Assembly (NCBI GenBank): GCA_029582155.1 | Contig: CM055903.1 | Location: 44,531,769-44,595,768 of the forward strand | Direction of reading: 5' to 3' | DNA length: 64,000 bases | Source of the DNA: Panopea generosa | Taxonomy: Eukaryota; Mollusca; Bivalvia; Adapedonta; Hiatellidae | Shown: piece after piece, positions 21,862-64,000 of the stretch | How positions within the stretch are numbered: position 1 is the first letter of the stretch | Layout: the number at the start of each line of letters is the position of its first letter | Made by a program: the position numbers and the translations under genes | Notes under the pieces: model-generated | The model's database searches: none | What the model was told of the DNA's origin: nothing | What the model saw: the letters and a program-made list of their open reading frames with translations, nothing else

Positions 21862-22139
21862 AGTGTTGTACTATGCATAGACGGAAACTTGTCGTATATA
21901 ATATGTTTCATAGGTCCTTGGTCATGTTACTGCTTGTATTCTGAACACCTATTTAATTTCGTATATCTGAATGGTGCCCATTATTAACACAGATATAAAG
22001 ACATGCGTATTTATTTGTATAATGTCATATTTGTATGGAAAACGTGCATAGCTCCATGATTATAATTATATAGCAAAATATAAATTTACATAATTCTCGT
22101 TCTCACGACTGTGTGGTTAACCCGTTATCACGAGTTACA

Positions 22140-34906: not shown

Positions 34907-37900
34907 TATAATCATCATCATCATCATCATCATAATCATCACTATCATAATCATCATCATTATCATCATTATCATAATCATCACCATCAGCATCACAACT
35001 GTTGCTGAGATTAACCACAATTCTGAGCACTTGTAAAACTGGTAAAAGCAAAGCACCATTAATAATAATGATTACTGTGTGTAGCTGCGGTGGACACAAG
35101 ATGCTGGAAAACAGAGACTTGAAAAGTACATGTTGATAATTCTGGATGAATTACCTGCACAGGTAATCGCTCAACATTGTATTCATTTATTTCGAGAAAG
35201 CCCTCTTTCCTGTCTGTAACTAGGTCAATTCATTTGGATGTGTTTCTTATTAAAATCTAAACAGCCATTACCTGAGCTGTGTATTCTAATATTCATTCAA
35301 GTTAATTTGTCAGCATTATTTATTGATACTCAAAATAGTGAAAATATCTGTCTGTCTGTCCATCCATACTTTTTATGGTGTTTTGAACAGAAAAACTGGT
35401 CTAAGTCTAAGGAACAGTCTCAAGATCATTTACCTACTTCTCTCCGCTAAGGTCATATGTTCGAGTCCCCAAAAACTTTATGCCAAAAAGTTTGCTAGTT
35501 ACTCAGAACTATTCTGAGGTCTTCCTCCACCAATAATACTAGATATGTCTGAATATAATTTGAAATGTGTTGAAAATGCTATTTAACCCAATACCAAAAA
35601 AAATGAGCAGGAAAAAAAGGGGCCTGCCAACGAGAAGAGTAAAAATAGACAGGATGTTAAAACCAATAACATTTAGCTATCAGCAGTGGTTAGTTTGACT
35701 GGGACATCTCAGCAGTGGTTAGTTTGACTAAGACATCTCAGCAGTGGTTAGTTTGAATGAGACATCTCAGCAGTGGTTAGTTTGACTGAGACATCTCAGC
35801 AGTGGTTAGTTTGACTTATATATCTCAACAGTGGTTAGTTTGACTTATTTATCTCAGCAGTGAATAGTTCAACTGAGACATCTCAGCAGTGGTTAGTTTG
35901 ACTGAGACATCTCAGCAGTGATTAGTTTGACTTATTTATCTCAGCAGTGAATAGTTTAACTGAGACATCTCAGCAGTGGTTAGTTCGACTGAGACATTTC
36001 AGCAGTGGTTAGTTCGACTGAGACATCTCAGCAGTGGTTAGTTTGACTGAGACATGTCAGCAGTGGTTAGTTCGACTGAGACATGTCAGCAGTGGTTAGT
36101 TCGACTGAGACATCTCAACAGTGGTTATTTGACTGAGACATGTCAGCAGTGGTTAGTTCGACTAAGACATCTCACTAGTGGTTAGTTTGACTGAGACATG
36201 TCAGCAGTGGTTAGTTTGACTGAGACATCTCAGCAGTGGTAAGTTTGACTGAGACATCTCAGCAGTGGTTAGTTTGACTGAAACATCTCAGCAGTGGTTA
36301 GTTTGACTGAGACATCTCAGCAGTGGTTAGTTTGACTGAGACATCTCAGCAGTGGTAAGTTTGACTGATACATCTCAGCAGTGGTTAGTTCGACTGAGAC
36401 ATCTCAGCAGTGGTTAGTTTGACTGAAACATCTCAGCAGTGGTTAGTTTGACTGAGACATTTCAGCAGTGGTTAGTTCGACTGAGACATCTCAGCAGTGG
36501 TTAGTTTGACTGAGACATTTCAGCAGTGGTTAGTTTGATTGAGACATCTCAGCAGTGGTTAGTTTGACTTATTTATCTCAGCAGTGAATAGTTCAACTAA
36601 GACATCTCAGCAGTGGTTAGTTTGACTGAGACATCTCAGCAGTGGTTAGTTTGACTTATTTATCTCAGCAGTGAATAGTTCAACTGAGACATCTCAGCAG
36701 TGGTTAGTTTGACTTATTTATCTCAGCAGTGAATAGTTCAACTGAAACATCTCAGCAGTGGTTAGTTTGACTGAGACATTTCAGTAGTGGCTAGTTCAAC
36801 TGAGACATCTCAGCAGTGGTTAGTTTGACTGAGACATTTCAGCAGTGGTTAGTTCGACTGAGACATCTCAGCAGTGGTTAGTTTGACTTATTTATCTCAG
36901 CAGTGAATAGTTCAACTGAGACATGTCAGCAGTGGTTAGTTTGACTGAGACATCTCAGCAGTGGTTCGTTTGACTGATATATCTTAGCAGTGGTTAGTTT
37001 GACTGAGACATGTCAGCAGTGGTTAGTTTGACTGAGACATCTCAGCAGTGGTTAGTTTGACTGAGACATCTCACTAGTGGTTAGTTTGACTGAGACATCT
37101 CACTAGTGGTTAGTTTGACTGAGACATCTCACTAGTGGTTAGTTTGACTGAGACATCTCAGCAGTGGTTAGTTTGACTGAGACATCTCAGCAGTGGTTAG
37201 TTTGACTTATTTATCTCAGCAGTGAATAGTTCAACTAAGACATCTCAGCAGTTGTTAGTTTGACTTATTTATCTCAGCAGTGAATAGTTCAACTGAGACA
37301 TCTCAGCAGTGGTTAGTTTGACTTATTTATCTCAGCAGTGAATAGTTCAACTGAAACATCTCAGCAGTGGTTAGTTTGACTGAGACATTTCAACAGTGGT
37401 TAGTTGGACTGAGACATCTCAGCAGTGGTTAGTTTGACTGAGACATCTCACTAGTGGTTAGTTTGACTGAGACATCTCAGCAGTGGTTAGTTTGACTTAT
37501 TTATCTCAGCAGTGAATAGTTCAACTAAGACATCTCAGCAGTGGTTAGTTTGACTTATTTATCTCAGCAGTGAATAGTTCAACTGAAACATCTCATCAGT
37601 GGTTAGTTTGACTGAGACATTTCAGCAGTGGTTAGTTGGACTGAGACATCTCAGCAGTGGTTAGTTTGACTGAGACATTTCAGCAGTGGTTAGTTGGATT
37701 GAGACATCTCAGCAGTGGTTAGTTTGACTTATTTATCTCAGCAGTGAATAGTTCAACTGAGACATCTCAGCAGTGGTTAGTTTGACTGAGACATCTCAGC
37801 AGTGGTTAGTTTGACTTATTTATCTCAGCAGTGAATAGTTCAACTGAGACATCTCAGCAGTGGTTAGTTTGACTGAGACATCTCAGCAGTGGTTAGTTTG

Positions 37901-40900
37901 ACTGATATATCTTAGCAGTGGTTAGTTTGACTGAGACATCTCACTAGTGGTTAGTTTGACTGAGACATCTCACTAGTGGTTAGTTTGACTGAGACATCTC
38001 AGCAGTGGTTAGTTTGACTGAGACATCTCACTAGTGGTTAGTTTGACTGAGACATCTCACTAGTGTTTAGTTTGACTGAGACATCTCAGCAGTGGTTAGT
38101 TTGACTGAGACATCTCAGCAGTGGTCACTTCGACTGAGACATCTCAGCAGTGGTTAGTTTGACTGAAACATCTCACTAGTGGTTAGTTTGACCGAGACAT
38201 GTGTCAGACAAAACAGCAATGCTGGGTGGAAGTCAGTTCCATTAAACAGTTGCATTAGGAAAAAAAGAGAATATGTTGCACCTGTGTGAGAAGTCATGAA
38301 GGAATAGGAAAGTTGGATCAGTAGCATTATTATAATAATCTGGTGATTCCGGGCACCATCACGGGAACTTGTGGGTAGTAAAATAATATATATTGTGTAT
38401 GTAATATTTTAGATATTTATTTGTTGGTTTCATGAAATTAATCATTCTTAATTGTTTTTGCCAGTCATTTGTGCAAAGCACTTTTTAACATTTCGTCTTT
38501 TATATATTAAACTTATTTTATCAATTGGATTTATTGTTGTTTTATAAATTTACTAGGCAAAAATCAAAATTGACCACCATGACATTATTTTTATGAGGGT
38601 TTAAACATTAAACTAGTAACTATTCAAAATCATCATAAATGTTTGTTTCAGATTCTAAAAAAATATCTGCAAACCAACAAATAAAATGGGTTTGGACTGT
38701 TTGGCTCATTAATTAGGTCTGCTATGTCCAGTATGCAGACTAAAAAAGCACATTATTTGAAATCACTGCACCATCATATATTTTGTGGCATATAGAAGTT
38801 TCTGTTACACCTTATCAGATAAAAGTATTTTTATTTGTTATCTTAAAGATTTAAAATATTTAAATATAATTATATTCAGAGTTGTCATATTTGAATTTAG
38901 AATGTATATTGGAAGTACTCTCTATATATTCATTGATTTGAGATTTGGAATATGTCATTGCCATTGCTTCAGTATATATTGCAATACACTTACTGCGTGT
39001 GAAAATACATTTTCAGAAAATTTCTAGAGGTATGATATAAAATGCATTAACCATTCATAGCAATGAACTGTTCATTTTGGTAATAATATGTTACAAGATA
39101 TGAATTTTTTTTTGGTTATTTACTTAAGTTATTATAGTTGAAATGTTTTAACCCTGGTTTTTGTTTCCTGTAACACTGATGGTTAACTTTTTCATTTAAA
39201 ATCACTCAAAATGGGATATAAATCTATTGTTTTAAGTGGGGGCAGTAGTGTAATGGATAGAGTGTTGGCCACTCACGCCAAAATTGTGGGTTTGATCCCC
39301 AGCTCGACCCGATGCATCTCATAAAACAACACTCAGTATTGGTTCTTCCCAGGAAGCAGACTGGATAGTAATTTAAATAAGCTCTTAGCTTTCATCGCAA
39401 TCGAGCTAAAATGAATTAGAATAAACTAAATCTATTTTTTTCTAGTCCAGTTCCCATTATCACCTATCAGTAATTGAAGTTGGCCAGTAAATTGGTTTCC
39501 TTATTGGCTGATGGTTAATGTTACCATTATATTGACTTGCAACTGTTAAAAAATGCTGATAAAGTGTGCAGTAACTTGTGATACAGTTACATTTATAACA
39601 ATGTATAATGACATACTGAATTGTGGATCCAGTATTTTCAGTCAGATGTGGAGCCAATTTCAGATTTTGTAAATCTCAGAATCTCAGATTATCGTCGCCT
39701 AACTCCAGGGGGTGGGTGGGTGTCAAATATTAACAGTTACTAAATATGTGTTTGTAGCAATAATCGGAACACTGTTGGCAACATTGAACAGTATAAATAA
39801 TTATATATTTGGGACAAACATTAGGTCATTATAAATTTATTGCTGGATTATCATCCAATTTTTTCTTAAAAAGGGACAGAGAGCAGATTTTATTTTTATT
39901 TTAAATTTTTTGAATGTTTTTTAAAAAATAAAAAATAAAAAAAAAATATGAAAATAAAAAGGGTCGCGGAGGCTTGAAAATTAGGTGTCAGACAAGGATA
40001 GTAATCTAGCAATTAATTTTTTATGGCCTTATATGGAATTTTAGTACTTGACACAGGGCTGGAAAATTCCACTTGTCATGACTAGTGAACACTTGGTCAG
40101 GAAAATAAGATTTAAGAAAATGACCTTAATATTTTTTTGATTTTAAGCATTCAATAAAAATGTTGGAAAGGGAGGACGAGTAGCTTTTATAAGAAATTTC
40201 AAGCCGTAGCTGTGACATATTCTCACAAGTTGTATTGAAATACCAGAATATTGTTGTAGTTATGCACCAGAAACTGGAATAAGGAAATGGTTTACTTTTG
40301 TTTTGTTATAAAATATTTATGACAGCAATATTAAAATACATATGAACAATCATGTTTTTTACTGCCATACTTCTTTGACAGGAGACAGTTCTTCCCACCA
40401 TAAAAACTTAAAAAAGAAGGGCGGATTTACTCTGAAACATCGTTATTTTGGTAATTTTGATGTGTATTGAATATATACTTGTATTTTGTGGTATACGACT
40501 GGGAGCACAGAAAGGGGTATTTTCACAAAAAGTTGGTTTTTTTACACATAATGTGTCTGTGGTATATAATTATTGTTACTATAAAATTGATTTGATTATT
40601 TTTTGTTTCTCTTTTTAATAAAAACATTTACTTAAATCTTAAAAACAAAACAACACTACTTGATAACAATAATTGCAAAACAAGTTTCGAGGTTAAGATT
40701 CACTATGTATGTGTATATAAATGTTGTTTTAAAATGTTTGCTTTCAGGTTATTTTCTTCACATAAAACCTAGGTAACTTGCATTGATTTATCTTGTTGTA
40801 AATCTTTGTTGTATGCGTACATGCATTTTATATGTTTTATTTATATGTGTTGGGATCTGTATACTTTAGCACACATATATATGTAAATGTCATTGTAGAG

Positions 40901-49900: not shown

Positions 49901-52900
49901 GTTTAATTCCATTGGCACATGACTCTTCCTACCACCATGAAATCGAACTGATTTATAAATGAAACTGGAAGAGCTTTGAAACTACAGTAATTACCATTGC
50001 ATGATTCTAGAAAAAAAATGTTTTTAGTTTATACTAATTTTATCATTTTAACTTGATTGATAAGAAAGCTCAAAGCTTATATGAACCGCTCTAGTCCACT
50101 TCCTGGATAGAACCAGTACTTAGTGTTTTTTTAGAGTTATTGTAGACAAGCTGGGGATTGAACCCCCAACCTCTGCCATAAGTGGCCAACACTCTATCCA
50201 CCACACTCTATCTACCATTCTGCTTAAAATGATTGTAAGAAATGCTAAAAAAAAATGTAAGTTATGCTCAAAATTAAATAAAACATATCAAACAAAGAAA
50301 TATCCCTGTAATAATGAAAACTTCTTTAAGTATTGACAAAGTTTGCAGATTTAGGTCAGAAATAAATTTAACATGTTTATCTGCCTTGCATTCATAAATA
50401 TGTTGGAGATACAGAGCTTAATTTTCAATGTGTGAGACTAGCTTCAACTCTACAGTGTAGAAGCCGAGTGCTCCAGCAGACTCATAATCAGAGGGTCATC
50501 AGTTTGATCCTTCGCCATGGCTACGCATGGTGTCCTTGAGAAAGACACTTTATCCACATATGCTTCGTACTGGTTCTACCCAGGAAGATTTTGAGCCTGA
50601 CTCCCATATGTCTAAGTTTTAAGAACTTGTTTTCAAAATCAATGTAAAATAAAAAAAGCTCAAAATCTTCATTGTCAATCATTTTTTGCAGATTTGGCAG
50701 TTCCAGCAAGCAGCGGGCAAGGCTTTTACAGAACTCAAACCGTTGGCTAACTATGAACTCAGGCTCAAGTAAGTTGTAACAGTGCACAGGTGTATCAAGC
50801 AGGGGTCTAGACATCTCTGAGATTACAAAAATTTTAAAATGGCATCATTTTCAGTCGATATCCCTGTTATTTGTGGATGTTTTTGAATGAAAATCATGGA
50901 CACATACACATCTTGTGTTAATTTTTCTTATTTATGACTTGTAAGAATTATCTCCTATTCCGTGACTTTATATTTCTTCAAAAATTTACTTTTTTTAATA
51001 GATGCCTTTACTTTATGTTTCTGTTAATGGGACAAAACAAAAAGAGATCAAAACTATACAATTTGTTGTATTATGTCTCAATACACAAGGATCTCTTAAC
51101 TCAATTAACTTTTGAGTCTAACACCCGTATCTCATATCTCAAATGTTCACAGATTCAATCGCTGTTTTTCAAATGTTTTTTGTTGGTAGTCTGCCAAGCG
51201 TGGTTGGCTCAGTAGGTATCAACCCAGGGGTCGTTAGTTTGAATCTCACCCAGTCACAATCTCCATGATGATTGATACACCACATTATGTCTCATTGTCA
51301 TTTGTCTCTCACCATTGATTCAAGTGGGAAAATTATCAGTTTCTTGCAGAGATGGGTATAATTTTTAAGTACTGGTTAACTTTCCATGATCCAAGGAAAG
51401 AGTGGTTATTTCAACTGATCATCTGTAAGCCCTTGATGGCATAAATGACACTGAATATTCATAAAAACAAACTGTTGTTTGACTGGTTGGCCATTCAGAC
51501 AATCCAAAAAATCCTTACTTTCCTCTTGCATAATAATGCAGTTACACCATAATGCATGCTTCTACACCACCTAACTTCTACAAGTTATTTTGTGATGTAA
51601 GCAATATAAATATAAATTTGTACCAACCAGGACAACTTCTGAATTTTAACAAAGCAATTAAATTTACTCTGTCAAAAAGTATCTACTATTCTGGTTTACA
51701 GGGAGACATTACCAAATGTGGGTGGAAGTTGGGTGAAGCGTGTTGACCTAGATTATAATCTCCAACATCTGTACTGTTGCTCTGATACAGATTTACACGT
51801 GTACGATCTGTCTGGCAAACTGCTGTTCAAGTTTGAAAGGTTTGTTACGCTCATGTTCAAAATTGTATACAAAGGTGATCTTCTCTTTCATGAAATTTTT
51901 CTTAGGTTTTACTTAAATACTTAAAAACTTAACTTAGATTTGACTGGTTATGTAACATTCTTTAAACAATGTTAATAAAACTAACTGCAGATGTTATCAA
52001 TTAGAAAACATACTTTATAGCTACGAATCGCTCTAAATAGTGTTAATGACCTTCCTATCGGACAGCTAAAGCCTACAAATTTGATTGGAATTCCATGCAT
52101 GACCTTTGCTGGATTCCATAATGGTACTTTGACTCCATAAAAAAGCAGAAGTGTCTGGAATTTTGGAGATTTTTTGTAATAAGATAATTTTTATGTTCTA
52201 CAAATTCTTGTATGATACAACATAATAATAAATTATAATACTAGTAACTCATGCTCACTATGATAATAAATCATACAACTGTTAGGAATATTCTGTGAAC
52301 TGTGATATTAAGTATATGCCATTATAACTGATGTTTTCAGGGCTCACACTATGTCCATTACTGGATGTTGTTTTTCTATGTCGGCCAAGGTCCTCATCAC
52401 ATCATCTGTTGACTCGGAAGGTAAGGACAAAGTCATATTCCTATATAACAGCTTTTTATGCCCACCCCCCCCCCTCCAACCCAAATTTTTGGGGAAGCAT
52501 ATAGTAATCGCAGTGTCCATCCGTCCTTCCGTCCGGTACTTTCGTTTCCGGCCTTTATCTTTGTCATGCAGAGATGGATTTTGTTGATACATGGTACAAA
52601 TGATCAACATAACATGATGACGTGTCGCGAGTAAGACTCACACCCGTACCTCAAAGGTCAAGGTCACAATTTGAGTTTGTTTGAATACACTTGGAGTCTG
52701 TGAAATTTCGTGCCTGGCCTATAACTTTGTCATGCATAGATGGATTTTAATGATACTTGCTACAAATGATCAACATAACATGACAACATGTTGTGAGTAA
52801 GACCCACACCCGTAACTCAAAGGTCAAGGTCACTATTTGAGTTTGTTTGACAACACTTCGAGTTTTTGTGAGATTTCGTGTCCGGCCTGTAACTTTGTCA

Positions 52901-55900
52901 TGCATAGATGGCTTTTATAAATACTTGCTACAAATGATCAACATAACATGACAACATGTCACGAGTAAGACCCACACCTGTTCCTCAAAGGGCAAGGTCA
53001 CAATTTGAGTTTGTTTAACAACACTTTGAGTCTGTGAGATTTTGTGTCCGGCCTGTAACTTTGTCATGCAGAGATGGATTTTAATGATACTTGCTACAAT
53101 TGATCAACATAACATTATAACATGTCACGAGTAAGACCCACACCTGTACCTCAAAGGTCAAGGTCACAATTTGAGTTTGACAACACTTTGAGTCTGTATG
53201 AGATTTCGTGTCCGGCCTGCAATTTTGTCATGCATAGATGAATTTTTATAAATACTTGTTATAAATGATCAACATAACATGATTACGTGTTGCACTTAAT
53301 ACCCAAACTCCCACTTCAAAGGACAAAGTCACAATTTAACTTTATTTGACAACACTTTCAGTCATTTTAACATTTCTTGTTTGGTCTGTCATCTATGGAT
53401 GAATTTTAAAAACACTTGGCTCAGCTGATCAACATGACATAATTAAGTGTCGCATGTAAGACCCAGAAACTTTCCTCAAAGGTCAAGGTCCCACTTTCAA
53501 TTTGTTAGATATTGTGTGTCTGGTCTGTGACTTTGCCTTTAACTTGGCTCAATTTATCAAGATGACATGACGACGTGTCATAAGTAAGACCTAGACCCAT
53601 ACCTCAAAGGTCAAGGTCTCAAATTTAGTATGTATGACAACACTTTGAATCTGTTTGAGATTTCAAGTCTGTCCTTTAACTTTATCATACATGGATAGAT
53701 TTTAAAAACACTTGGCTCAATTTATCAACAATTGATCAGTAACTTTGTCTTACATTTAAGGATTTTAAAATAGCTTGACACAAGTGATCAGCATGTCATG
53801 ATGTTTCAGCAGCATTTAACTGTTGAAATACCCAGACCATTACATCAGATGTCAAGGTCAAGGTTACACAAAGGTCAAGGTCATGCCTTAATGTAAAAAA
53901 CATGAAATTGCATGTCTAGTCTGAAAGATCAGTCCATTACTCTTTATATTCATGGGTACATCGCTACCTATTATAACATAATTATATTGTTATTTTTCAA
54001 CGACCATTTAGGGGGCATGCAACACTTACCAGTGACATTGCTTGTTAGAATTAAACTCTTTCCAAAAAGGCTGACCCTTACACTGGATCTAAGGGGAAAT
54101 AACAGCAGCTAGCATACTTATACTTTAGGATATATACTTTCCTATTTGAACAAGATTATACAAAATTATTTTTCCAATTTTGACTTGTTCAGTTAAAAGC
54201 AAATTTATACATGCAAATATTGTTAATTGGTAATTTCAGTGAAGGTTTGGAGCCTGACTGGTGGTCTGGTTCACACATTTAGAGGTCATTCAAGAGCTGT
54301 GACTGGTTTACTGTTACATCCAGAAACTTCATCCATCATCATCACTGCTTCACTGGACGGTTCCATCAGAATGTGGTCCCTGGAGACTATGGATCTCCTC
54401 TACATGTAAGCCTAGGCTTCTGAAAAGTTTGTTTGAATATTAAGCAGCATTTTTATGCCATCGAGAGCTTAAAGACAGTCATTTAACACTTACACAAACC
54501 TTACCACTCTTTCTTTGGATTCTTTTTTTTTTTTTTTTTTTGAATAGGGTTAAACGCCATTTTCAACACATTTTAGGTTATATAATTATGGCATATCCAG
54601 TTTTACTGGTGGAGGAAGACGTCAGACTGAGTACTGAGTGGGTAAAACCACCGTCCTTCCACAAGTAACTGGAAACTTTCTCACATCAAGTTTTTGGAGC
54701 GAGCAGGACTCAAACCTAAGACCTTAGTTGTGAGGGATTAGTGATCTTGAGATGGTGCTTTAGACCACTTGGCAATGGAGGACCCCTCTCTTTGGATTCC
54801 GGAACATTACCCAGTACTCAAGCACACTCATCTCAACAAGTAACTGATAACTTTCACACTTGAATCAGCAGTTAGAGACGAATGAAAGTGGGATTCCCTG
54901 TCATATATCAATAATCATGGAGACTATGGCTGGCCGGATTCAAACTCACAACCACTGGATTGATAGTCAGACACACTACTGACTTAGCTAACGGGGCCCG
55001 GCTCAATTGATGTGTATATAGTGGATAATTCTGTTTTGTAGATATTTTGAGATGAGATGTAAAACGATAAACATACTAGCACATCTTATAATGGTAATGA
55101 CAGTTTTCAAACTGATGGTGAAGTTGCAGGCTTATTGCCTCCTCCTAATGCAACTATGATAAAATCTGATGCTCAGTTATACAAGATGGTTTTATGACAG
55201 CTGGGTTTTCGCCCCACACTGTTACTACATTAATTCCATGAATTTTGCTATAGAATGTAAAAAGTATGCTTGTAAGCTATATACCAGTAACTGTAATGGT
55301 CCTTCATTAATTAGAAATTAATGATAAATTAAAATACAGTCAAACCTGTATAAGCGGCCACCTCTATTAGCAGCCATTTGTTTTAAGCAGCCACATTTAC
55401 TTTTTCCTGTTTATATGCTTTAAGAGCAAATTAACCTGTATAATAAAATAAGCAACAACCTGTCTTAAAAGGCCACTTGCTCCTTCCCTTGGCTGGCTGC
55501 TTAAGACAGGTTTGACTGTATATAGATAAATCAGACAGGTGATGAGTCCCAACATTGACTTATACAATGTATTTCTGATGTGGATAAAGATTTCAGATTT
55601 AAGTTGTTGGTGTCCAGATTTTAGACATATTTTTAAAAAATGCAACATATATTAAAAAAAAACGGTACCTATGTGTGTGTGTGATTTATGACAGTAAGCT
55701 ATTTTAGTACAATTATCTTTTAGAGATTTTTAATTGTAGAAATTTGGTGCATAATACAGATTTTCTATATTTTCAGAGGAGATATATACTGATTATACCG
55801 TTTTTAAAATCCACCCTTGTATTTTTAATAGAAACATGAAATATAAAAAACAATCTATTTCTTTTCTCTCTCCAGGATTGTTGTATCGGCAGACGGGGTG

Positions 55901-58900
55901 ATGTGGATGGGGTTGACAGATGACAAACTTTTGTATATCAGTACATGTAGAAATATCACACTGTGGCACCTCAATAATTTCTGTACTTTCTGGAGCCTGG
56001 CACGTAACCAGGTCTCCCATCTGTCACTAGCCAGCTGTGAAGAAAAAACTACGAGGGTACTGGCTGTGGGTGACGATAGTAGGTAGGTACATGGGTAACT
56101 GTAATGGTTGTGGAGCACATGGTCCAGTGGTAGAGTATCAGACCCAGGATTGGAGTGTTGTGCATTTCATCCTCCACCATGGCTTTGTGTTGTGTCCTTG
56201 AGCAAGACATCTGCATATGTTTAGTACTGGTTCTAGCCAGGAAAATTTTGAGCATGATTTGTCATAGTTGTAAGAACTAGTTTCACAGTCTATGTAAAAT
56301 AAACATGTTTAAAACAGTATTAATGGTTGTTTAACATTGCTTTGACCATTTTTGTCGTGACAGTGTCTTCTTGAGACTGCCTCATTATAGTATTAATGTT
56401 AATCATTTCCCTAGCAACATAAATCAACAGCCCAGTCTAATTTTTAACTAAGTTTTCCGAAATCTGGTTATTAGATTTTATGTATGTCGTTTGGCAGGTG
56501 GGCGTCAAACTGATGGTTTCTGTTCAATAATTTCAATTAGGAATAAGTTATTTGAATGAAACATAGTACATAGGTTATATAGAACATATATCGAGAGGAT
56601 GAAGGTCGCGATTGCATAATGGGATCAAGGTCACTTTTACTAAAAATAGTAAAATGATTTCCGTTCAATAAATTAACATAGGATAGCTTCTTGATTGAAA
56701 CATTACACGTAGGTAGATTATATTGAGATGATGGTTTTAAAAACGATTAACCTATATTCACATGATGGTATGCCTATATAAAAAACTAATTTATACCTAT
56801 ATAAATAAACGTGAATTTAAACATGTATAAACATCAGTGTAGAAATGTTTACCTATATAAACGTGAATTTAAACCAACATAATGTTTATGTTCAGGAACA
56901 TGTATATATTTTCAGTGTTCGTATGTTTACACGCAGTAACCGGAAAAACATCACGACTGTTTTACCTCCCCCTGATATATCGCCCTTACAGAAAGTACTG
57001 AGTGTGTGCTACAGCAGGGAGAAGAATGCAGCTTTCCTTCTCATTACAAACAGAGAAATATGGGTATATACCACAAGGTAGGACATAGCTCTTTTTTAAT
57101 AACAATTTTATTTTATGAAAACATATAACTACTGCAATATTATGTTTCTTTCTGGTTATTTTATGGATTTTTTGTGACAGTCAAGGTCAAACTTCAAAGT
57201 CAAGTTGACCTGAAAAAATGTCATTTATTTAATTATCAGTCATGCAAATTTTCTCAAGCACGAAATGGTCACAAAATTAGCCATCTCAAATATTTTTTTT
57301 ATTTGATCCCATTAACTTTATCTCATTATTAAACAAAAATCAAATGTTTTTTTAGGAAATAAAATATGATTTATTAAAATAGGGAATAATTATGATCATC
57401 ACTATACTACCTTGATAAAGTTTTCTATATCATCTCACATGAATATTGCATAAGAGGTGAAGCCTCAAGTGTAATTAGCTGATTTGACATATCCACGAGA
57501 AAAATATCAATATAATATTTAAAACCAATCTCATTTAAATCATTTCCTCAAGAATGCTTGCTTCTGTTTAAGTTAATTTATTGCTGTGTTTTTAAGAACA
57601 AAATTTACAGCACTTCAAATATCCGCCATTTTGAAGGTTATGCCAACAGCTGTTGAAACGAGTACTCTGATTGGTTGAAATAAAAATAGCTAAAAATAGT
57701 GATATTGGAAATTCAATTTTTTCTAGAAGAATTTAAATAGGTTGTCACCAGATCTTGCATTAGGGAAGATTGTGTACTTTAGTCAGATTGTATTTAAAAC
57801 TATATTGTTTTTGCAGGACTGATCCATCGTGCCGCATTGCTAAGTGGGACGTCCATGATCTACAGATGCCTTATATCAGTGGTGACACATCCAACTTGCC
57901 ACCTGGGTGAGTTTTTAGCTCCACTAGAAGGTGTTTTGTCAGTGTTAATGTCTGTATTGGCATTAGATATCTTCTCAAGATCTTTTTGCAAATTCCTTAT
58001 TTCAGATTTTCAATTAAATATCAGTATATGTAGTTTTTTTGTTTATAGAAATGAAATACCTGAGGTAAGAAATAATGGATCATGCAACAGTCAAATAATA
58101 TAAATTATTCTTTTTAAAATAATCCTTTTTTTATATTCCAGGTCATCTAAGTATAGTATCTTTATTTTATCATATAAATTTATCAGAACAAGGCATAAAC
58201 ATCTTGTATAATTATTTTCAATTTTTTTTATGATTAATAATTATTTTAAATTTATGTAGCATTGGTGGTGGTTGCTGGTAGAGATTGAACAATTTTCCAA
58301 TTTCCCTTCTTTTCATATAGTGTTGTGATCCAACCTCCCAGTCAGTCCATGTCAACTCACCGCGCCACAGAGAACGGACACGGCAATGAAATGATCTCCA
58401 ATTGCTGTAGTTTATGTATTCTCAACTCTACCGCCATGATGTGGACTGATGAAGGACTTTCATGCCCCATAAGGTATGTGCAGTCAAACATGTTTAAAGC
58501 AGTCAGTCAAGGGAATGAGCATAAGTGGCCCTTTAAGACAGGTTGTTGCTTAATACATGTCAATTTGCTCTGAAAGCTTAGAAATTGCAAAAAGCAATTG
58601 TGGCTGTTTAAGACAAGTGACTGCATAATAGAGGGGACAACGTACACAGTTTTGACTTACTTCACGCTTTCAGATCACTTCTAAACCATTTTATATTCTG
58701 AGTTTATCAAGTCATTTGTTTCATTCTTCATACAACCAGGTTGGAACAAGTTAGCCCAGTTGGTAGTGCATGCATCTGACTATCAATCCTGGGTCATGAG
58801 TTTGAAAACCCGTCTAGTTACACTCTCCGTGATGATGTCATTTGTCTCTCACCACTGTTCCAAGCGGGAAAGTTGTCAGTGACTTGCAGAGATAGGGTGT

Positions 58901-61823
58901 ACTCAAGTACTGGTTAATCTTCCAGGATCCTAGAAAAGAGTAGTTACGTTAACTGATCATCTATAAGCATAAAAATGATATTAACTATTTAATCAACATA
59001 ACCAGAGTACAACTTTACAAAGCTTCTACTTTAACATAAATAAGAGCAAATCTTATAGGCTCTGAGCTCCTCTCACAATCAACCTAAAATAAATTAGTAT
59101 AAATGAATGTGGGGTTGAGTTTGACCTTTTATGTTTCCAGACACACTTACCTGCTCCTTGGTATGGAAGATGGAAGGATTTTGTTTATGGACCCTGTGAT
59201 CAAAGGGCAGAAGTACATGGAGTTTAAGGCTTCCAAAGATTCTGTAAGTCATTGTTTGATTTGAAAATATTGTAGCATACCCATCCCAATATGTTAATTT
59301 TGATTTCTTATTATAAACTTTGTAAGTAAATTCTTGACTTAATAAATAAATTTGATTAAAGTATTGTGGCATGTCTAACCCAATAAACTTATCTGTTGTT
59401 TTTTTTTGTCAGATACAAGACATGCGCCATGATGTGGCCCACAGCTGTTTGATCACAGTTTGTCGTCTGAAGACTTTGGTGATGATCCAGATATGGGGCC
59501 TGCCCCAGCTAGATGCCATGTACGAGCTGTACTGTGGCCCTGATATCACATGCTATGCCAGAGTGGTATGATGTTGCTGACATTCTGTTCTTACACTTTT
59601 CAAATTCTATATTCCTTTAATGTTCAATATCAAATTGTGCTGGATGCTAGAATTTGAAAATACATGTAATTATTTGTAAATGAGCTTGTGTAAATTAGAA
59701 TGTTGTTCTTGTGTGTTTTTTGTCAAAATTTAAATTCTGTCACCTCTGTCATTATAAATATTAGGAGATGGTTCCCACCACCCCTTGAAGTGTTTTTATT
59801 TGCTCTGAAAGCTGACTGATTTTTCAAAATGTGACCACTGAGTCTTGTAATACAATATATTTCTTCCCATCTACCTTAAAGGAATTTTTAACAGACCTTT
59901 TACATGATGTCCAATAATGCGGTCTTACCTTATATTATTGTGCCATTGATAATAATAACTATTACGTGCAAATCAGAATTTTTTGTTTATTGTTTAAAAT
60001 ATTTGAATGTTTTATCAGTTGAAAAACATTAAATTCACCCCTACTAGTTTAGTTTTGAGCATGTGGTCTAGTGGTAGAGTATTAGACCCAGGATCAGAAA
60101 GTTGTGGCCCCTCCTCCATGGCAATGTGTTTTGTCCAAGAGCAAGGTATTTTAGCTTCATATGCTAAGTACTGATTTTACCCATGAGGAGTTTTAGCATG
60201 TTGTAAGAACTGAGTTTGTAAAGCCTTTTTCATACTTAATTAAAAAATTGTACTCTAATACAATATCCAGTATTCATATAAAATTAAAGGACAGCCTCTA
60301 GTCTAAGACTCGACCTCAAATTTGAAAATATAAATGCAGATTTGGGGTAATATAGGTTACAGGTATTTACATTTGTTTTGTTATAAAGGAGTCCATTCAT
60401 TTTTGTGTTGAGCATGGAATAAAGTTTTATAACCTTGCACCTGGTGAATATTCACCTTAAAAGTACACGTACATGCAACCATCTTCTTTGACAAACCCAG
60501 ACATGGTAGATTTTTATGTTATGCTTGATGGATAAAAAGGACAGTTAGTGATATATGGTGTTTGCATTGCTTTACAGGGTTTGTCATTTCTGACTGGTCA
60601 CTCGTCTGGACAAATTAATCACTACTTTCTGGAACAAGTCGAGGATCTCGGCATGGTCAAATCTAAACGTAAGTACAGTTGAAACTCGTTTTTTCGATAT
60701 CGCTTGAGTTTATATTCCCGTAGTGTCAATATTTTTTGCCATCCCAAACTTTTCCCCTTCTTTGTGTTTGTAAATATATTCCATTTTACTCAATATTGTC
60801 TGTGTTGCTATAACTGATATCTCGATCCCAGTTTTTGTTCCCAATTGATCATATCACACCTTTAATTAATTGTTTGTCTCAATATAATTATTGTTGACAT
60901 AATTTTGTGTGTTTTTTTCCACGTCGTTTGAAAATCTACGTGTGCCATTTTTCACAGTTTGTTAAAGACACGACACTAAATACAGGTCAACTGTAAAGGT
61001 GTCGGTTTTAATGACAGACAGAATGTTGCAAATGTTGTGTCATCGAATTTGGTGATTGCATGTAAATTGTTTAATTATCATTTGATTCAATCAATAAGTC
61101 TCAACTTATATCTCAAACCACTGAGAAATTCAAGGAAGGACCCAGATATTTATATCAGCATTTATCACAGTGTAATTCAAACACACAGACCATAATATGA
61201 AAGTGAAAGTACAACTGACATATAGCAATTATCAGGTGATGGAAATAAATATTGATCTATAGACAAAATCTATGTCGATATTCGGATATCTCGATTTTTT
61301 TTGGCAGTCCCTCCATTATCGAGATAACCAGTTTCGACTGTAAATTTCTGTAACTTATGTTTAACTAAAATGAATTTAGTAAACTTTATTCATAATTTGC
61401 CATTATATAGCGGTTAGCCATGTAATACAATTGCCATATTTCTAGAGCTTTGAAACTTATTTTTGTAGCAAAAGGGTAAAATAAAGTTAAAAAAGTTAAA
61501 ATTCTGTAATCTCTGCTTATGAAAAAGGAATTAAAAATGTTTGTACAAATGATGATGATATGAATGTCAGATGTGTGAATTTTTTTATTACTACTAAATA
61601 ATATACAAATGGATGGCAATGACGATGATTTGTACAAAATATTATCTTTTTTTAGCAATACAAAATACTGATACATATGTAAATAGATTTGTTATGATTT
61701 CTTCCCCTTGACAGAGGAACCATCCTATGAGAGTGTAGTTGATGAAAACAGACGTCCAGAACACCAAGCTCCCCTTGTTGCCATGGATTCACTCCATACT
61801 CTAGGGTTATTTGTCACATGCAG
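30039..61823 (+). CDS. WD40-repeat protein, WDR97/WDR87-like (16 exons, 3' end outside window)
   Basis: Sixteen coding exons joined at GT-AG sites give 2258 bases with every phase consistent, at least 752 residues. CDS segments: 30081-30492, 31143-31229, 47859-47968, 49081-49200, 50692-50768, 51702-51839, 52341-52420, 54240-54405, 55876-56082, 56916-57077, 57817-57906, 58321-58473, 59141-59243, 59413-59565, 60578-60668, 61715-61823. Residues 1-135 are acidic and Ser-rich (DEEEDDEDRG). WD-type strands follow: GGVGGIKIW (about 245), EVKVWSL (345), TASLDGSIRMWSL (377-389), ITLWHL and DSSVRMF (465). No signal peptide or membrane segment is present. WD40 propellers are protein-binding scaffolds; the string of divergent blades and FLLITNREIWVYTTRTDPS recall WDR97/WDR87, large proteins linked to cilia. 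That assignment is from memory of the family and is moderate. Intron 2 is 16.6 kb. Confidence 0.85.
31143..31229 (+). CDS. WD40 gene exon 2
   Basis: Encodes residues 138-166 (VAYNGRMRQFVILDSKGITT then WKRDLVDPR), a first blade-like FVILDSKGITTWK strand. Flanked by ttatttacag and GAG|GTGATT, phase 1 on both sides. A 16.6-kb intron follows. Confidence 0.85.
32188..32430. mobile_element. piggyBac-like MITE with TTAA target duplication
   Basis: The element at 32192-32426 starts CCCTTTACTTCA and ends with its exact reverse complement, TGAAGTAAAGGG. TTAA flanks both sides (32188-32191 and 32427-32430). TTAA duplication and CCC ends define piggyBac-type elements; with 235 bp and no ORF it is non-autonomous. 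An internal hairpin (acagtgcagga ... tcctgcactgt) surrounds gttcagatt and its complement. A second copy lies at 46031-46252. Confidence 0.85.
32478..32660 (+). mobile_element. tRNA-derived SINE, family C
   Basis: Contains a B box (gcaagtttgatccccagctc), then ctccaaaacaacactcagta, acccaggaaa and the tail agctaaaatga. Matches the copy at 39237 in order and wording; the A box is degraded. Confidence 0.7.
33785..34370. repeat. Compound ATC-triplet tract
   Basis: Imperfect (atc)n and (acc)n with a longer-range repeat: atcaccaccattttcatcat recurs several times at spacings of roughly 60-75 bp. The His-, Ile- and Met-rich open frames here are products of the triplet repeat. Confidence 0.9.
34371..34844. 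other. Intron 2 sequence between ATC-triplet tracts
   Basis: No gene, splice-flanked exon or recognisable repeat seen. Confidence 0.4.
34845..34990. repeat. ATC-triplet microsatellite
   Basis: A purer (atc)n run (about 17 perfect units from 34850), then imperfect units. The poly-Asp frame on the minus strand is a by-product. Confidence 0.95.
35400..35605 (+). mobile_element. tRNA-derived SINE, family D
   Basis: Contains a B box (atgttcgagtcccc), then cttcctccaccaataatact, tttgaaatgtgttgaaaatg, and ends tatttaacccaataccaaaa. Same tail as the antisense copy at 54517-54790. Confidence 0.6.
35680..38205. repeat. 29-bp minisatellite, about 85 units, with dimer-type higher-order variants
   Basis: The unit contains cagcagtggttagtttgact then gagacatct (29 bp). 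A variant ending gacttatttatct is in all of about 13 occurrences followed by a unit reading cagcagtgaatagtt, so these two travel as a 58-bp dimer. Another variant carries cactagtgg in place of cagcagtgg and clusters at 37060-37140 and 37930-38060. The array lies within intron 2 of the WD40 gene. Confidence 0.95.
39237..39425 (+). mobile_element. tRNA-derived SINE, family C, best-preserved copy
   Basis: The A box region reads ggggcagtagtgtaatggat and the B box region gtgggtttgatccccagctc. It continues through aaaacaacactcagtattgg and cccaggaagcagact to the tail gagctaaaatgaattagaat. Confidence 0.8.
41041..41255. mobile_element. Degraded relative of the small TIR element at 29421
   Basis: Starts near gtttgctgcatttccctgcc and ends near gaagacagcaaacaaatatt. 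gtttgctg and cagcaaac form the ends. The interior resembles 29440-29600 in order (aaaatgc.g.ctac, caaaactttttt, cctacctacc). Confidence 0.45.
41649..41935 (+). mobile_element. SINE, family B, with five tandem B boxes
   Basis: The head is gtggtcatgtgttagagcat. The B-box segment (gttcgatcctccaccacggt plus gg) is repeated with an exact 22-bp period, gatcctcc-type starts at 41707, 41729, 41751, 41773 and 41795. The body then runs on normally to gtactggttc-type text (agcactggttctacccagat) and ends gtaaaataacttgaataata. Confidence 0.8.
42355..42660. repeat. Degenerate AT-rich repeat
   Basis: Irregular repeats of ttaattgatttatatttgag at about 25-35 bp spacing. No coding potential. Confidence 0.7.
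42661..45430. other. Intron 2 of the WD40 gene, late part
   Basis: Mostly unique AT-rich sequence. 43885-44025 is a degraded relative of the duplicated repeat at 6160-6800. A tRNA-like antisense piece at 43440-43525 (gattgaactcacaatctttc) is a probable SINE remnant. Confidence 0.4.
45437..45660 (+). mobile_element. tRNA-derived SINE, family A
   Basis: A box region ctagctctgtcagcacatct, B box gtcatgagtttgaatccctg. Body: atgatgattgatatacgaca, then tctctcactg, cttgctgagatgg and a T-rich end. A second family-A copy starts 15 bp further on in the same orientation. Confidence 0.75.
45673..45963 (+). mobile_element. tRNA-derived SINE, family A, best-preserved copy
   Basis: Head: gattagctcagtcggttact (A box) and gtcgtgagttcgaatccccc (B box). 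Body: cagtctccgtgatgattgat, gagatggggtgtgcttgagt, aactgatcgtctgttagccc and gatggcataaaaatgacgct. Tail: aaatcaactcaatcaat. The tRNA-like part lacks a closing acceptor stem, so it is a SINE head and not a tRNA gene. Confidence 0.85.
46027..46256. mobile_element. piggyBac-like MITE, second copy
   Basis: TTAA then CCCTTTACTCCA at 46031; the right end is TTAAGTAAAGGG (to 46252). It follows the 32192 copy closely through cgcgttttcccgcaccattc and acagtgcaggaagagttcag. The right-hand TTAA has changed to TTTT. Confidence 0.75.
46660..46815. mobile_element. Tc1/mariner-like MITE, degraded copy
   Basis: Shares cttaagcagtcacatttgca, gcaacaacctgtcttaaaag and ttaagacaggtttg with the copy at 55337. The left end is eroded. 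Confidence 0.65.
46979..47003. repeat. Poly-A tract
   Basis: About 24 consecutive A, following a stretch without a recognisable retroelement body. Confidence 0.8.
47308..47466 (+). mobile_element. SINE, family B, 5'-truncated
   Basis: Contains atcctccaccttggctttgt, cggttcaacccaggaagact, tttgagcatgatttttctaa and the end ttgtaagaacttgtttcgca. The A box is missing. Confidence 0.65.
47859..47968 (+). CDS. WD40 gene exon 3
   Basis: Acceptor ctttttttccag. Encodes residues 167-203 (VRRALQFPKYEYRLIMNIVY, ending CYFALGKDFSVK), ending in phase 0 before gtaata. Confidence 0.85.
49081..49200 (+). CDS. WD40 gene exon 4
   Basis: Acceptor gtttttgcag. Encodes residues 204-243 (VLNRDFEETCSVHTDMRSVL to ITGGVGGIK). 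The blade motif GGIK|IW is split across intron 4. Both junctions are phase 0. Confidence 0.85.
49362..49800 (+). mobile_element. SINE, family C, split by a family-A SINE
   Basis: The 5' part (49362-49509) runs from gggcagtagtgcagtggaaa to the sequence before the insertion. The 3' part resumes at 49753 with ctcttagcttacttcacaat and ends agctaaaatgaattacgagt. The interruption is the family-A copy at 49510-49739. Confidence 0.85.
49497..49752 (+). mobile_element. SINE, family A, nested, with 13-bp target duplication
   Basis: The body at 49510-49739 carries the A box gattagctcagttgattacg, B box gtcgtgagttcaaatccccg and tail attcaatcaatcaatcaat. It is flanked by tgtaacatataag at 49497-49509 and again at 49740-49752, a perfect 13-bp target-site duplication typical of LINE-mediated insertion. 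It must be younger than the family-C SINE it interrupts. Confidence 0.92.
50055..50228 (-). mobile_element. SINE, family C, antisense
   Basis: Reverse complement contains GTGTGGTGGATAGAGTGTTGG (head), GGGGGTTCAATCCCCAGCTT (B box), TACTGGTTCTATCCAGGAAG and an AGCTTTGAGC tail. Confidence 0.75.
50461..50662 (+). mobile_element. SINE, family B
   Basis: B box gtcatcagtttgatccttcg, then ccatggctacgcatggtgtc, ttgagaaagacactttatcc, actggttctacccaggaaga and the end gtaaaataaaa. It ends about 30 bp before the acceptor of exon 5. Confidence 0.75.
50692..50768 (+). CDS. WD40 gene exon 5
   Basis: Encodes residues 244-268 (IWQFQQAAGKAFTELKPLAN then YELRL), completing the IKIW strand. Acceptor attttttgcag, donor CAA|GTAAGT, phase 2. 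Confidence 0.85.
51190..51475 (+). mobile_element. SINE, family A
   Basis: Head gcgtggttggctcagtaggt and B box gtcgttagtttgaatctcac; then ctccatgatgattgatacac, aagtgggaaaattatcagtt and cttgatggcataaatgacac. Confidence 0.75.
51702..51839 (+). CDS. WD40 gene exon 6
   Basis: Encodes residues 269-314 (ETLPNVGGSWVKRVDLDYNL to DLHVYDLSGKLLFKFE). CCSDTDLHVYDLSG is a blade end. Donor AAG|GTTTGT, phase 2. Confidence 0.85.
52341..52420 (+). CDS. WD40 gene exon 7
   Basis: Encodes residues 315-341 (RAHTMSITGCCFSMSAKVLI to TSSVDSE), the AH...TGCCFS...LITSS pattern of a WD blade. Donor AAG|GTAAGG, phase 1. Confidence 0.85.
52440..54030. mobile_element. Composite tandem element (period about 167 bp) with ATGCCC/GGGCAT ends
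   Basis: The left end is ttatgcccac and the right end agggggcatg, weak inverted ends. Inside, 7-9 units with a period near 167 bp share aatgatcaacataacatgac, gagtaagacccacacc, ctcaaaggtcaaggtcac and ggcctgtaactttgtcatgc; units decay toward the right. Each well-kept unit carries AGGTCAAGGTCA. It fills most of intron 7 of the WD40 gene. Such arrays are widespread in bivalves; the transposon class is unclear to me. Confidence 0.75.
54240..54405 (+). CDS. WD40 gene exon 8: canonical WD repeat
   Basis: Encodes residues 342-396. It completes VKVWSL and holds a whole canonical repeat: FRGHSRAVTGLLLHP, IITASLDGSIRMWSL. This is the clearest WD40 unit in the protein. Donor ACAT|GTAAGC, phase 2. Confidence 0.9.
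54517..54790 (-). mobile_element. SINE, family D, antisense, with long T tract
   Basis: A run of about 20 T (54522-54541) corresponds to the poly-A tail, then gttaaacgccattttcaaca, gtggaggaagacgtcagact and a B-box complement (gcaggactcaaacctaagac). It lies directly beside the antisense family-A SINE. Confidence 0.75.
54795..55012 (-). mobile_element. SINE, family A, antisense
   Basis: Complement strings: acccagtactcaagcacact, ctcaacaagtaactgataac, gacgaatgaaagtg, ggattcaaactcacaaccac (B box) and gctaacggggcccggctc (A-box end). Confidence 0.8.
55335..55520. mobile_element. Tc1/mariner-like MITE, intact ends with TA duplication
   Basis: The element at 55337-55518 begins CAGTCAAACCTGT and ends ACAGGTTTGACTG, perfect 13-bp inverted ends, flanked by TA on both sides. 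No ORF. Internal text repeats the ends imperfectly (acctgtcttaaaaggccac), which makes the family easy to recognise at 29783, 46660 and 58481. Confidence 0.88.
55876..56082 (+). CDS. WD40 gene exon 9
   Basis: Encodes residues 397-465 (MIVVSADGVMWMGLTDDKLL; ISTCRNITLWHLNNF; TTRVLAVGDDS). The TLWHL and DDS|SVRMF strands mark two further blades. Donor TAG|GTAGGT at 56083, phase 2. Confidence 0.85.
56108..56312 (+). mobile_element. SINE, family B, well preserved
   Basis: Head agcacatggtccagtggtag (A box), B-box region gtgttgtgcatttcatcctc, ccaccatggctttgtgttgt, tccttgagcaagacatctgc, tagtactggttctagccagg and tail cagtctatgtaaaataaaca. It begins 25 bp after the donor of exon 9. Confidence 0.8.
56500..56740. 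repeat. Two units of a dispersed tandem repeat
   Basis: tttctgttcaataatttcaa at 56518 and atttccgttcaataaattaa at 56660 start two units about 142 bp apart, both with ttgaatgaaaca or ttgattgaaaca and a gatgaagg or gatgatgg end. One carries gatcaaggtcac. Confidence 0.6.
56916..57077 (+). CDS. WD40 gene exon 10
   Basis: Encodes residues 466-519 (SVRMFTRSNRKNITTVLPPP; VCYSREKNAAFLLI; NREIWVYTT). The FLL-x4-E-x2-VYTTRTD passage is the one that most recalls WDR87/WDR97. Phase 2 at both ends. Confidence 0.85.
57817..57906 (+). CDS. WD40 gene exon 11
   Basis: Encodes residues 520-549 (RTDPSCRIAKWDVHDLQMP then YISGDTSNLPP). Acceptor tttttgcag, donor TGG|GTGAGT. Confidence 0.8.
58321..58473 (+). CDS. 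WD40 gene exon 12
   Basis: Encodes residues 550-600 (GVVIQPPSQSMSTHRATENG; CSLCILNSTAMMWTDEGL). The donor AAG|GTATGT is followed after one more base by the end of a MITE (see 58481). Confidence 0.8.
58481..58630. mobile_element. Tc1/mariner-like MITE directly beyond the exon 12 donor
   Basis: Begins cagtcaaacatgtttaaagc one base after the donor hexamer GTATGT (58474-58479) and continues with agtggccctttaagacaggt and gttgcttaata to gacaagtgactgcataatag. The right end is eroded and the expected left TA is now TG. Confidence 0.7.
58738..58995 (+). mobile_element. SINE, family A
   Basis: Head caagttagcccagttggtag, B box gtcatgagtttgaaaacccg, then ctccgtgatgatgtcatttg, cttgcagagatagggtgtac and aactgatcatctataagcat. 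Confidence 0.75.
59141..59243 (+). CDS. WD40 gene exon 13
   Basis: Encodes residues 601-635 (RHTYLLLGMEDGRILFMDPV, then KGQKYMEFKASKDS). LLLGMEDGRILFMDP is a degenerate blade strand. Ends in phase 0 before gtaagt. Confidence 0.85.
59413..59565 (+). CDS. WD40 gene exon 14
   Basis: Encodes residues 636-686 (IQDMRHDVAHSCLITVCRLK; MIQIWGLPQLDAMYELYCG). MIQIWGLP is a WD-like strand. The preceding intron is only 169 bp. Phase 0 both sides. Confidence 0.85.
60058..60248 (+). mobile_element. SINE, family B
   Basis: Head agcatgtggtctagtggtag, then tattagacccaggatcagaa, cctcctccatggcaatgtgt, tccaagagcaaggtatttta, and a tail ttgtaagaactgagtttgta. Confidence 0.75.
60578..60668 (+). CDS. WD40 gene exon 15
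   Basis: Encodes residues 687-716 (GLSFLTGHSSGQINHYFLEQ, then VEDLGMVKSK). The donor AAC|GTAAGT shares its last T with the TA target site of a MITE. Confidence 0.85.
60674..61342. mobile_element. Tc1/mariner-like non-autonomous element at the exon 15 donor
   Basis: The element at 60676-61340 starts CAGTTGAAACTCGTT and ends AACCAGTTTCGACTG, with TA on both sides (60674-60675 and 61341-61342). Sub-terminal parts also pair (tcgatatcgcttgag against ttatcgagata). At 665 bp with no ORF, it is non-autonomous. The left TA uses the sixth base of the exon 15 donor GTAAGT. Confidence 0.82.
61715..61823 (+). CDS. WD40 gene exon 16, parent of the 67-bp tandem array
   Basis: Encodes residues 717-752 (QEPSYESVVDENRRPEHQAP; LVAMDSLHTLGLFVTC), the first strands of a WD repeat whose DG-x-IKIW part must lie in the next exon, outside the window. 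Donor GCAG|GTAAGC at 61824, phase 2. Read-through would give an immediate TAA. The last 60-odd bases plus the donor recur in tandem downstream. Confidence 0.85.
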
Positions 61824-63575
61824 GTAAGCACAAAGCCTCCCTTGTTGCCATGGATTCACTCCATACTCTAGGGTTATTTGTCACATGCAGGTAAGTACAA
61901 GGCCCCCTTGTTGCCATATATTCACTCCATACTCTAGGGTTATTTGTCACATGCAGGTAAGTACAAGGCCTCCCATGTTGCCATGGATTCACTCCATATT
62001 CTTGGGTTATTTGTCACATGCAGGTAAGCACAAAGCCTCCTTTGTTGCCATAAATGCACTCCATACTCTAGGGTTATTTGTCACATGAAGGTAAGCACAA
62101 AGCCTCCTTTGTTGCCATGGATTCACTCAATACTCTAAGGTTATTTGTCACATGCAGGTAAGTACAAGGCCCCCTTGTTGTCATGGATTCACTCCATACT
62201 CTTGGGTTATTTGTCACATGAAGGTAAGCACAAAGCCTCCTTTGTTGCCATGGATGCACTCCATACTCTAGGGTTATTTGTCACATGAAGGTAAGCACAA
62301 AGCCTCCTTTGTTGCCATGGATGCACTCCATACTCTAGGGTTATTTGTCACATGCAGGTAAGCACAAAGCCTCCTTTGTTGCCATGGATTCACTCCATAC
62401 TCTAGGGTTATTTGTCACATGCAGGTAAGTACAAGGCCTCCCTTGTTGCCATGGATCCACTCCATACTCTAGGGTTATTTGTCACATGCAGGTAAGTACA
62501 ATGCCTCCCTTGTTGCCATGGATTCACTCCATACTCTTGGGTTATTTGTCACATGAAGGTAAGCACAAAGCCTCCTTTGTTGCCATGGATGCACTCCATA
62601 CGCTAGGGTTATTTGTCACATGAAGGTAAGCACAAAGCCTCCTTTGTTGCCATGGATTCACTCCATACTCTTGGGTTATTTGTCACATGCAGGTAAGTAC
62701 AAGGCCTCCCTTGTTGCCATGGATCCACTCCATACTCTAGGGTTATTTGCCACATGCAGGTAAGTTCAAGGCCTCCCTTGTTGCCATGAATTCACTCCAT
62801 ACTCTTGGGTTATTTGTCACATGAAGGTAAGCACAAGGCCTCCTTTGTTGCCATGGATGCACTCCATACTCTAGGGTTATTTGTCACATGAAGGTAAGCA
62901 CAAGGCCTCCTTTGTTGCCATGGATGCACTCCATACTCTAGGGTTATTTGTCACATGCAGGTAAGTACAAGGCCTCCCTTGTTGCCATGGATCCACTCCA
63001 TACTCTAGGGTTATTTGCCACATGCAGGTAAGTACAAGGCCTCCCTTGTTGCCATGGATTCACTCCATACTCTAGGGTTATTTGTCACATGAAGGTAAGC
63101 ACAAAGCCTCCTTTGTTGCCATGGATGCACTCCATACTCTAGGGTTATTTGTCACATGAAGGTAAGCACAAAGCCTCCTTTGTTGCCATGGATGCACTCC
63201 ATACTCTAGGGTTATTTGTCACATGCAGGTAAGTAGGAGGCCTTTCTTGTTGACATGGATTAACTCCATACTCTAGGGTTATTTGTCACATGCAGGTAAG
63301 CATAAGGCCTCCTTTGTTGCCATTGATGCACTCAATAATTTAGGGTTATTTGTCACATGCAGGTTAGCACGAGACCTCTGTTGTTGCCATGGATTCACTC
63401 AATACTCTAGGGTTATTTGTCACATGCAGGTAAGCTTGAGGACTCTCTTGTTGCCATGGATTCACTCCATACTCTAGGGTTTTTGTCACATGCAGGTAAG
63501 TACAAGGCCTTTTTTTGTTGCCATGAACTCACCCCATACTCTTGGGTTGTATGCAGGTAAGCATGATGCCTTTCT
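61824..63575 (+). repeat. 67-bp tandem array derived from the 3' end of exon 16 and its splice donor
   Basis: About 26 units of 67 bp (some 66), each reading gtaag(t/c)acaa, a(a/g)gcctccc or similar, ttgttgccatggattcactc and tagggttatttgtcacatg(c/a)ag. The parent is exon 16 at 61762-61823 (caccaagctccccttgttgc ... acatgcag) plus the donor at 61824. Donor-like gtaag follows nearly every unit (gttag in one). Two subtypes, gcag|gtaagt and gaag|gtaagc, alternate as pairs (two of each) from 62425 to about 63295, giving a 268-bp higher-order unit. The array lies in the intron after exon 16. Confidence 0.93.
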
Positions 63576-64000
63576 TGTTTGCCATAGGTTCATTACATAG
63601 TCTAGTGTCGAAACTCGTTATGATGAATTCCCTGGGACCATAAAAATAATTCGAAATATCCTAAGTTGGTTTTATCAGGAGTCTATTTTTGTGCAACTTA
63701 TTACCATTACCCGACCCACTTCATAAATCATTGAAAACATACATGTTGTACATGTAAATACCTCCGTTTGTTGATTTTTTACTCAATACAACATGTTGCT
63801 GTTATATTTACACATGATATAAAATTTAGTTATATTGATGAGTACTGTGGATATATCTTAAATTATGGTAAATTTTACTATTTACATGCATCATTTTCTT
63901 CTACCTAAACATATGTTGTGCGTTGTTATCCATGTGTAAACTAATTGTCTATTTGCCCAGTGCGTGAACATTGTATATTTTTAAGTGTGATATAATAGAT
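63576..64000. other. Intron sequence at right edge with a MITE remnant
   Basis: 63604-63700 begins gtgtcgaaactcgttatgat and resembles the ends of the element at 60676, a partial Tc1/mariner-like copy. The next exon of the WD40 gene is not reached. Confidence 0.5.

Follow-up and report, generated by a model that had tools for sequence, protein, structure and literature searches.

In a 64,000-nucleotide stretch of Panopea generosa contig CM055903.1 (the window; positions below count from its first letter), the intron that follows an inferred coding exon on the plus strand opens with a tandem array of 26 frame-breaking units, each joining an intron start to a copy of the exon's own tail. All 27 junctions of this array read AG|GT in the same register; any of them could act as an acceptor and not just as a donor, and a splice at the wrong donor could still be corrected. 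This apparent dual character, absent from an earlier note on the stretch, is the more interesting property of the array. The account we favor, which we place just on the probable side, is that a duplication across the exon/intron boundary grew into a 67-bp minisatellite and left an array of dual-specific AG|GT sites at the intron start, with minor use of later donors and possible re-splicing. The features concerned are as follows.

61715–61823, plus strand: inferred coding exon of 109 nt, reading EPSYESVVDENRRPEHQAPLVAMDSLHTLGLFVTC, called from splice sites and phase with no homology support
61772–61823, plus strand: first repeat copy, the exon tail itself, recognized by identity to the next copy
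61824–61829, plus strand: presumed authentic donor CAG|GTAAGC, 8 of 9 positions to CAGGTAAGT and the sole frame-open donor of the 27
61824–63556, plus strand: array of 26 units (GT...CAG or AAG) bounded by AG|GT, from Tandem Repeats Finder (TRF) and cutting at AG|GT
62425–63228, plus strand: clearest four-unit higher-order repeat, units U10–U21 (chosen by eye), in 268-bp blocks, from mismatches at each unit offset
63296–63608, plus strand: decayed 3′ end of the array, U23–U26 plus an incomplete last copy, from divergence and alignment of the remnant

TRF places a 67-bp repeat at 61772–63548 (26.6 copies, 91% matches). With the unit boundary set at AG|GT, there are 27 donors, the first at 61824 and the last at 63557, which delimit 26 units (U01–U26): 22 of 67 bp, three of 66 bp, and one of 61 bp. 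AGGT words at 62138 and 63586 lie out of register and were excluded from the donor and unit counts. Each unit opens with some 13 bp from the intron start (typically GTAAG(C/T)ACAA(A/G)GC); the other 54 bp or so equal the exon tail exactly or nearly and end in CAG or AAG. The exon tail (61773–61823) and the next copy (61840–61890) agree at 51 of 51 bases; copies U02–U24 differ from the tail by one to six mismatches, and the differences amount to 2 aligned columns for U25 and 15 for U26. Because the other copies differ, exon and neighbor were probably duplicated or exchanged recently, as happens when a minisatellite grows.

These results refine what the earlier note had described, namely some 26 tandem copies of an exon-derived 67-bp unit at 61762–63575 that begin exactly at a functional donor. 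The array is real and its 26 units are recovered. Its end point shifts, since an incomplete 27th copy (63557–63608, 52 bp; alignment score 50 against a best of 35 among 2000 random window stretches) carries it to 63608. The unit is largely but not wholly exon-derived, given its 13 bp of intron, and the match of the remaining ~54 bp to the exon tail makes that tail the first repeat, so that the array starts inside the exon and not at the donor. Further copies of the unit were not found elsewhere in the window (best scores 35 on the plus and 32 on the minus strand, not above random stretches), the unit pattern had no matches in prokaryote and viral contig collections, as expected for a eukaryote, and Rfam and tRNA scans returned no match.

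The donors themselves are near-identical. That nearly all of them carry GTAAG behind CAG or AAG, as first noticed from the letters, is borne out: 26 of 27 read (C/A)AG|GTAAG and one reads CAG|GTTAG. By nine-base word, 11 are CAGGTAAGT, nine AAGGTAAGC, six CAGGTAAGC (the exon's own among them), and one CAGGTTAGC. Measured against the U1 consensus CAGGTAAGT, 11 donors match at 9 of 9 positions, six at 8, and ten at 7. Of the 26 extra donors, 11 thus fit the consensus more closely than the exon's own site does (8 of 9), five fit it equally well, and ten less well (7 of 9). They lie at the following positions.

Plus strand, first twelve extra donors: 61891, 61957, 62024, 62091, 62158, 62224, 62291, 62358, 62425, 62492, 62559, 62626
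Plus strand, remaining fourteen (the last reaching 63562): 62693, 62760, 62827, 62894, 62961, 63028, 63095, 63162, 63229, 63296, 63363, 63430, 63496, 63557

Such words are concentrated here: 26 of the 30 (C/A)AGGTAAG occurrences on both strands of the window fall in 61757–63606, none of them on the minus strand of the array.

Reading frame separates the first donor from the rest. Because TGC AGG TAA follows, reading through to any later donor ends in ...GLFVTCR* (26 of 26), which upholds the earlier claim that the first donor alone keeps the protein open; the frame also stays open after a later splice that recreates the same junction. The AAG variant changes TGC to TGA in the exon frame, and the array holds 28, 17, and 25 stops in its three frames, which together argue against coding sequence being maintained in the intronic copies.

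The junctions also resemble acceptors to a degree. On approximate splice-site matrices, the 18 CAG junctions score 3.4–4.3 as acceptors, within the range of the seven inferred acceptors of the gene (1.6–9.4), and the nine AAG junctions score 1.3; a score of 4.3 exceeds 96.9% of 3360 plus-strand AGs, the array's own included. U01 contains one branch-point-like TTCAC, whose A is base 35 of the unit and precedes the unit end by 32 nt, and 12 of the 26 units have TTCAC at this place. Acceptor scores and branch-point-like words together would make a 67-nt splice possible on paper.

Under the favored account, a tandem duplication across the exon/intron boundary would have seeded the minisatellite, which then would have grown in four-unit blocks and left the intron start as a run of dual-specific sites. 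Most mature mRNA would probably join the first donor to a distant acceptor. Splice sites are commonly paired across the exon (exon definition); on that principle competition would be expected among the first few donors (exon lengths of 109, 176, 242, and 309 nt), and farther donors would be poor partners for the exon's acceptor. A minority product using one of the nearest later donors would lengthen the exon in 67-nt steps, meet an immediate stop, and be degraded. A retained unit is bounded by GTAAG and AG, so a second splice could remove it, restore the same junction, and thereby make expansion tolerable.

A plainer possibility, though one we consider on the unlikely side, is an inert intronic minisatellite: exon definition would always use the first donor and pass over the rest, and no effect would be measurable. 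The window is rich in other tandem arrays, and nine of the larger ones, which were checked, hold no AGGTRAG. The usual view is that introns contain many unused splice-like motifs, according to PMC10809524, which itself finds many of them usable. Nor does RNA folding of the exon plus three units stand out (z = +1.25, with 93 of 100 shuffles folding equally well or better). Inertness fits less well with the 11 extra donors that match U1 better than the exon's own, or with nearest extra donors only 67 and 133 nt away, which would give exons of ordinary size (176 and 242 nt).

The exon belongs to a gene whose upstream part was placed by a scan for splice sites and frame; the set is incomplete, with further exons of the gene not placed.

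52341–60668, plus strand: inferred upstream exons at 52341–52420, 54283–54405, 55876–56082, 56916–57077, 57817–57906, 58321–58473, and 60578–60668

Joined, these upstream exons translate to a product that matches Pfam WD40 (PF00400) at 32.6 bits against a cut-off of 27. Against the PDB, the joined gene matches WD40 chains of many kinds, with no ortholog recognized among the best 60 of 141 matches. A WDR97/WDR87-like identity was considered and lacks support; we do not claim it. A trial exon at 59414–59568 was rejected for stops in the frame used and removed from the codon training set. A 166/334-bp tandem repeat (52540–53504; five GTAAG, no AGGTRAG) lies 120 bp past the inferred exon at 52341–52420. 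A codon is split at each end of the 109-nt exon, which holds the final two bases of the one and the first two of the other. On approximate matrices its acceptor is fair (5.4) and its donor strong (7.3), and its phase fits the inferred exon at 60578–60668.

Several observations weigh against the favored account. At the branch-point-like position, TTCAC is replaced by TGCAC in nine units and TCCAC in three, with TTAAC and CTCAC in one each, and a TAG about 19 nt ahead of the final AG in 19 of 26 units could spoil acceptor use. The nine AAG| junctions are weak as acceptors, at 1.3. No gap between placed exons of the gene is below 414 nt, and 67 nt may be too little for an intron here. In favor of the account, splice-core columns are less variable than others (1 of 7 vs. 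34 of 60 over the 26 units, P = 0.04; 0 of 7 vs. 22 of 60 in U01–U22, P = 0.052), but this difference is borderline, the columns of related copies are not independent, and it is too weak to claim selection. No convincing next exon was recognized within the window, where 11 AGs of 63560–63995 were read in the right phase; it may lie beyond the window. Finally, the last two exons alone have no Pfam match at an expectation value (E) up to 10 and match no WD40 chain in the PDB, where they find two weak ribosomal-protein matches (E 0.48 and 1.6). For this reason the label "WD40 exon 16" in the earlier note, both number and WD40 nature, does not carry over as more than that note's own deduction.

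The same absence of Pfam and WD40 PDB matches would suit the view that 61715–61823 is a chance open frame and the array an ordinary noncoding repeat with GTAAG in its unit. The codon score of the exon is moderate, equalled by 550 of 5000 random open stretches, and an open run of 35 codons exists at 12% of the sampled positions. A fair acceptor, a strong donor, and agreement in phase with the preceding inferred exon speak for an exon, and we regard a chance frame as quite improbable.

The order of the units suggests how the array grew. Within U01–U22, mean mismatches fall to 3.11 between units four apart and 3.29 at offset 8, compared with 4.6–6.2 at the remaining offsets up to 9; when unit order was shuffled 5000 times, no offset came as low as 3.11. 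U23–U26 differ from U01–U22 in 11.1 columns on average, against 5.1 within U01–U22. The array thus looks like a minisatellite of the usual type that grew four units at a time and whose 3′ edge would hold the oldest copies. This structure bears on whether the copies were multiplied in assembly, which could at least have caused copy number to be misjudged: a mean difference of 6.9 columns between units, the block order, and the more diverged 3′ end are unlike one repeated error and leave an artefact highly improbable.

A different origin would make the array the source of the intron itself. In this scenario the exon is the source of the entire unit, its 13-bp "intron" part included, and duplication of an AGGT segment created a donor within a once-continuous exon, as in a published model (PMC4974935 and PMC10809524). 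The exon just upstream of the shared core does resemble the unit spacer (CAGAACACCAAGC vs. CAGGTAAGCACAAAGCC), with a likeness score equalled by 533 of 20,000 shuffles and by 114 of about 20,000 random 18-mers of the window; the likeness is weak and gapped, and on its account the spacer too may stem from the exon. Past the array, the exon frame closes at once after the last junctions (AGG TAA at 63557; RFIT* at 63588), and the longest frame there, 40 residues from 63606, has a poor acceptor (0.8). As a candidate next exon, that frame (GTIKIIR, faintly WD40-like by eye) was rejected, with no Pfam match at E up to 10 either alone or joined to the exon. We judge intron birth improbable.

Repeats that supply splice sites have precedents in human genes. 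The minisatellite of human 6-16 (IFI6, G1P3) has a short unit, of 12 bp. It reportedly "provides multiple splice donor sites," in the words attributed to Turri, Cuin and Porter in 1995. Here, too, tandem copies at an inferred exon end offer good donors, but the unit is 67 bp, about 54 bp of it exon, breaks the frame, and has an AG|GT junction. Two downstream repeat units serve as donors in IFI6, according to PMC4526556. In human UBC, tandem dual-specific splice sites are spliced stochastically; the AGGT sites that bound its repeats can act as donor or acceptor, and splicing can take out entire units (Duan et al. 2024, PMC10809524). In that account the UBC monomers are coding, the isoforms differ in monomer number, and dual-site use is demonstrated, whereas the repeats here stand at an intron start, break the frame, would all be expected to be removed, and carry putative dual sites.

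Intron gain by tandem duplication of AGGT segments likewise relies on AGGT-bearing copies to supply both splice sites; the cases set out in PMC4974935 are ATP2A1 and fission-yeast 24-bp AGGT repeats, with introns across two or four duplicates. In contrast, the intron here continues past the array, probably existed before it, and holds 26 extra copies. Boundary repeats at exon–intron junctions that form novel introns are described for duplicated human genes in PMC2812944. Recursive splicing, in turn, is a series of splices, each to an AG|GT motif that regenerates a donor (PMC10809524). The AG|GTAAG junctions here would do the same after splicing. Known recursive sites are preceded by strong pyrimidine tracts and belong to very long introns, whereas here the sites recur every 67 nt behind modest tracts (CAG junctions 3.4–4.3, AAG junctions 1.3).

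The claim that arrays of this kind are rare is weakened by IFI6 and UBC; the place, copy number, and frame-breaking unit remain unusual. The parts are known, and the combination—location at the 5′ end of an intron, number of copies, and a unit that breaks the frame—is new. Searches of open-licence literature, judged by the titles and abstract openings they listed, gave no case of an exon tail and donor amplified this far at an intron start, which is no proof of absence.

Elsewhere, the window holds further repeats and open frames. A 29-bp tandem repeat (35680–38200; 87 copies, 86% matches) includes two GTAAG and no AGGTRAG, and a 60-bp repeat (23984–25592; 26.8 copies, 93% matches) includes neither word. 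A 54-bp repeat (753–2037) stays open over long distances in either direction, for as many as 230 residues on the minus strand, and may be coding; a nested 15/45/135-bp repeat (19170–20273) has long minus-strand open frames. Open frames at 26744–28425 (plus) and 21033–21870 (minus) look like pieces of transposon reverse transcriptases, with words such as QGSVLGPILFILFTNDL and FADD. An acidic open frame of 162 residues (30075–30563) has no Pfam match at E up to 10.

The choice of the spliceosome among near-identical donors is usually studied with few sites in constructs. One gene here would present 27 donors in a row, with graded match to U1 and a reading frame in which each wrong choice shows up. 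Should copy number differ among individuals, the array would supply a natural dose series and may show how the expansion of an exon tail is tolerated. The mechanism put forward in the earlier note, in which array length could set the share of truncated mRNA, is possible. A stronger form of this idea, which we consider doubtful, is that the AG|GT copy number acts as a rheostat, in which the number of units on an allele would set the share of pre-mRNA lost to frame-broken isoforms while 67-nt re-splicing keeps the gene working. If true, it would provide a natural length series for both donor competition and recursive splicing.

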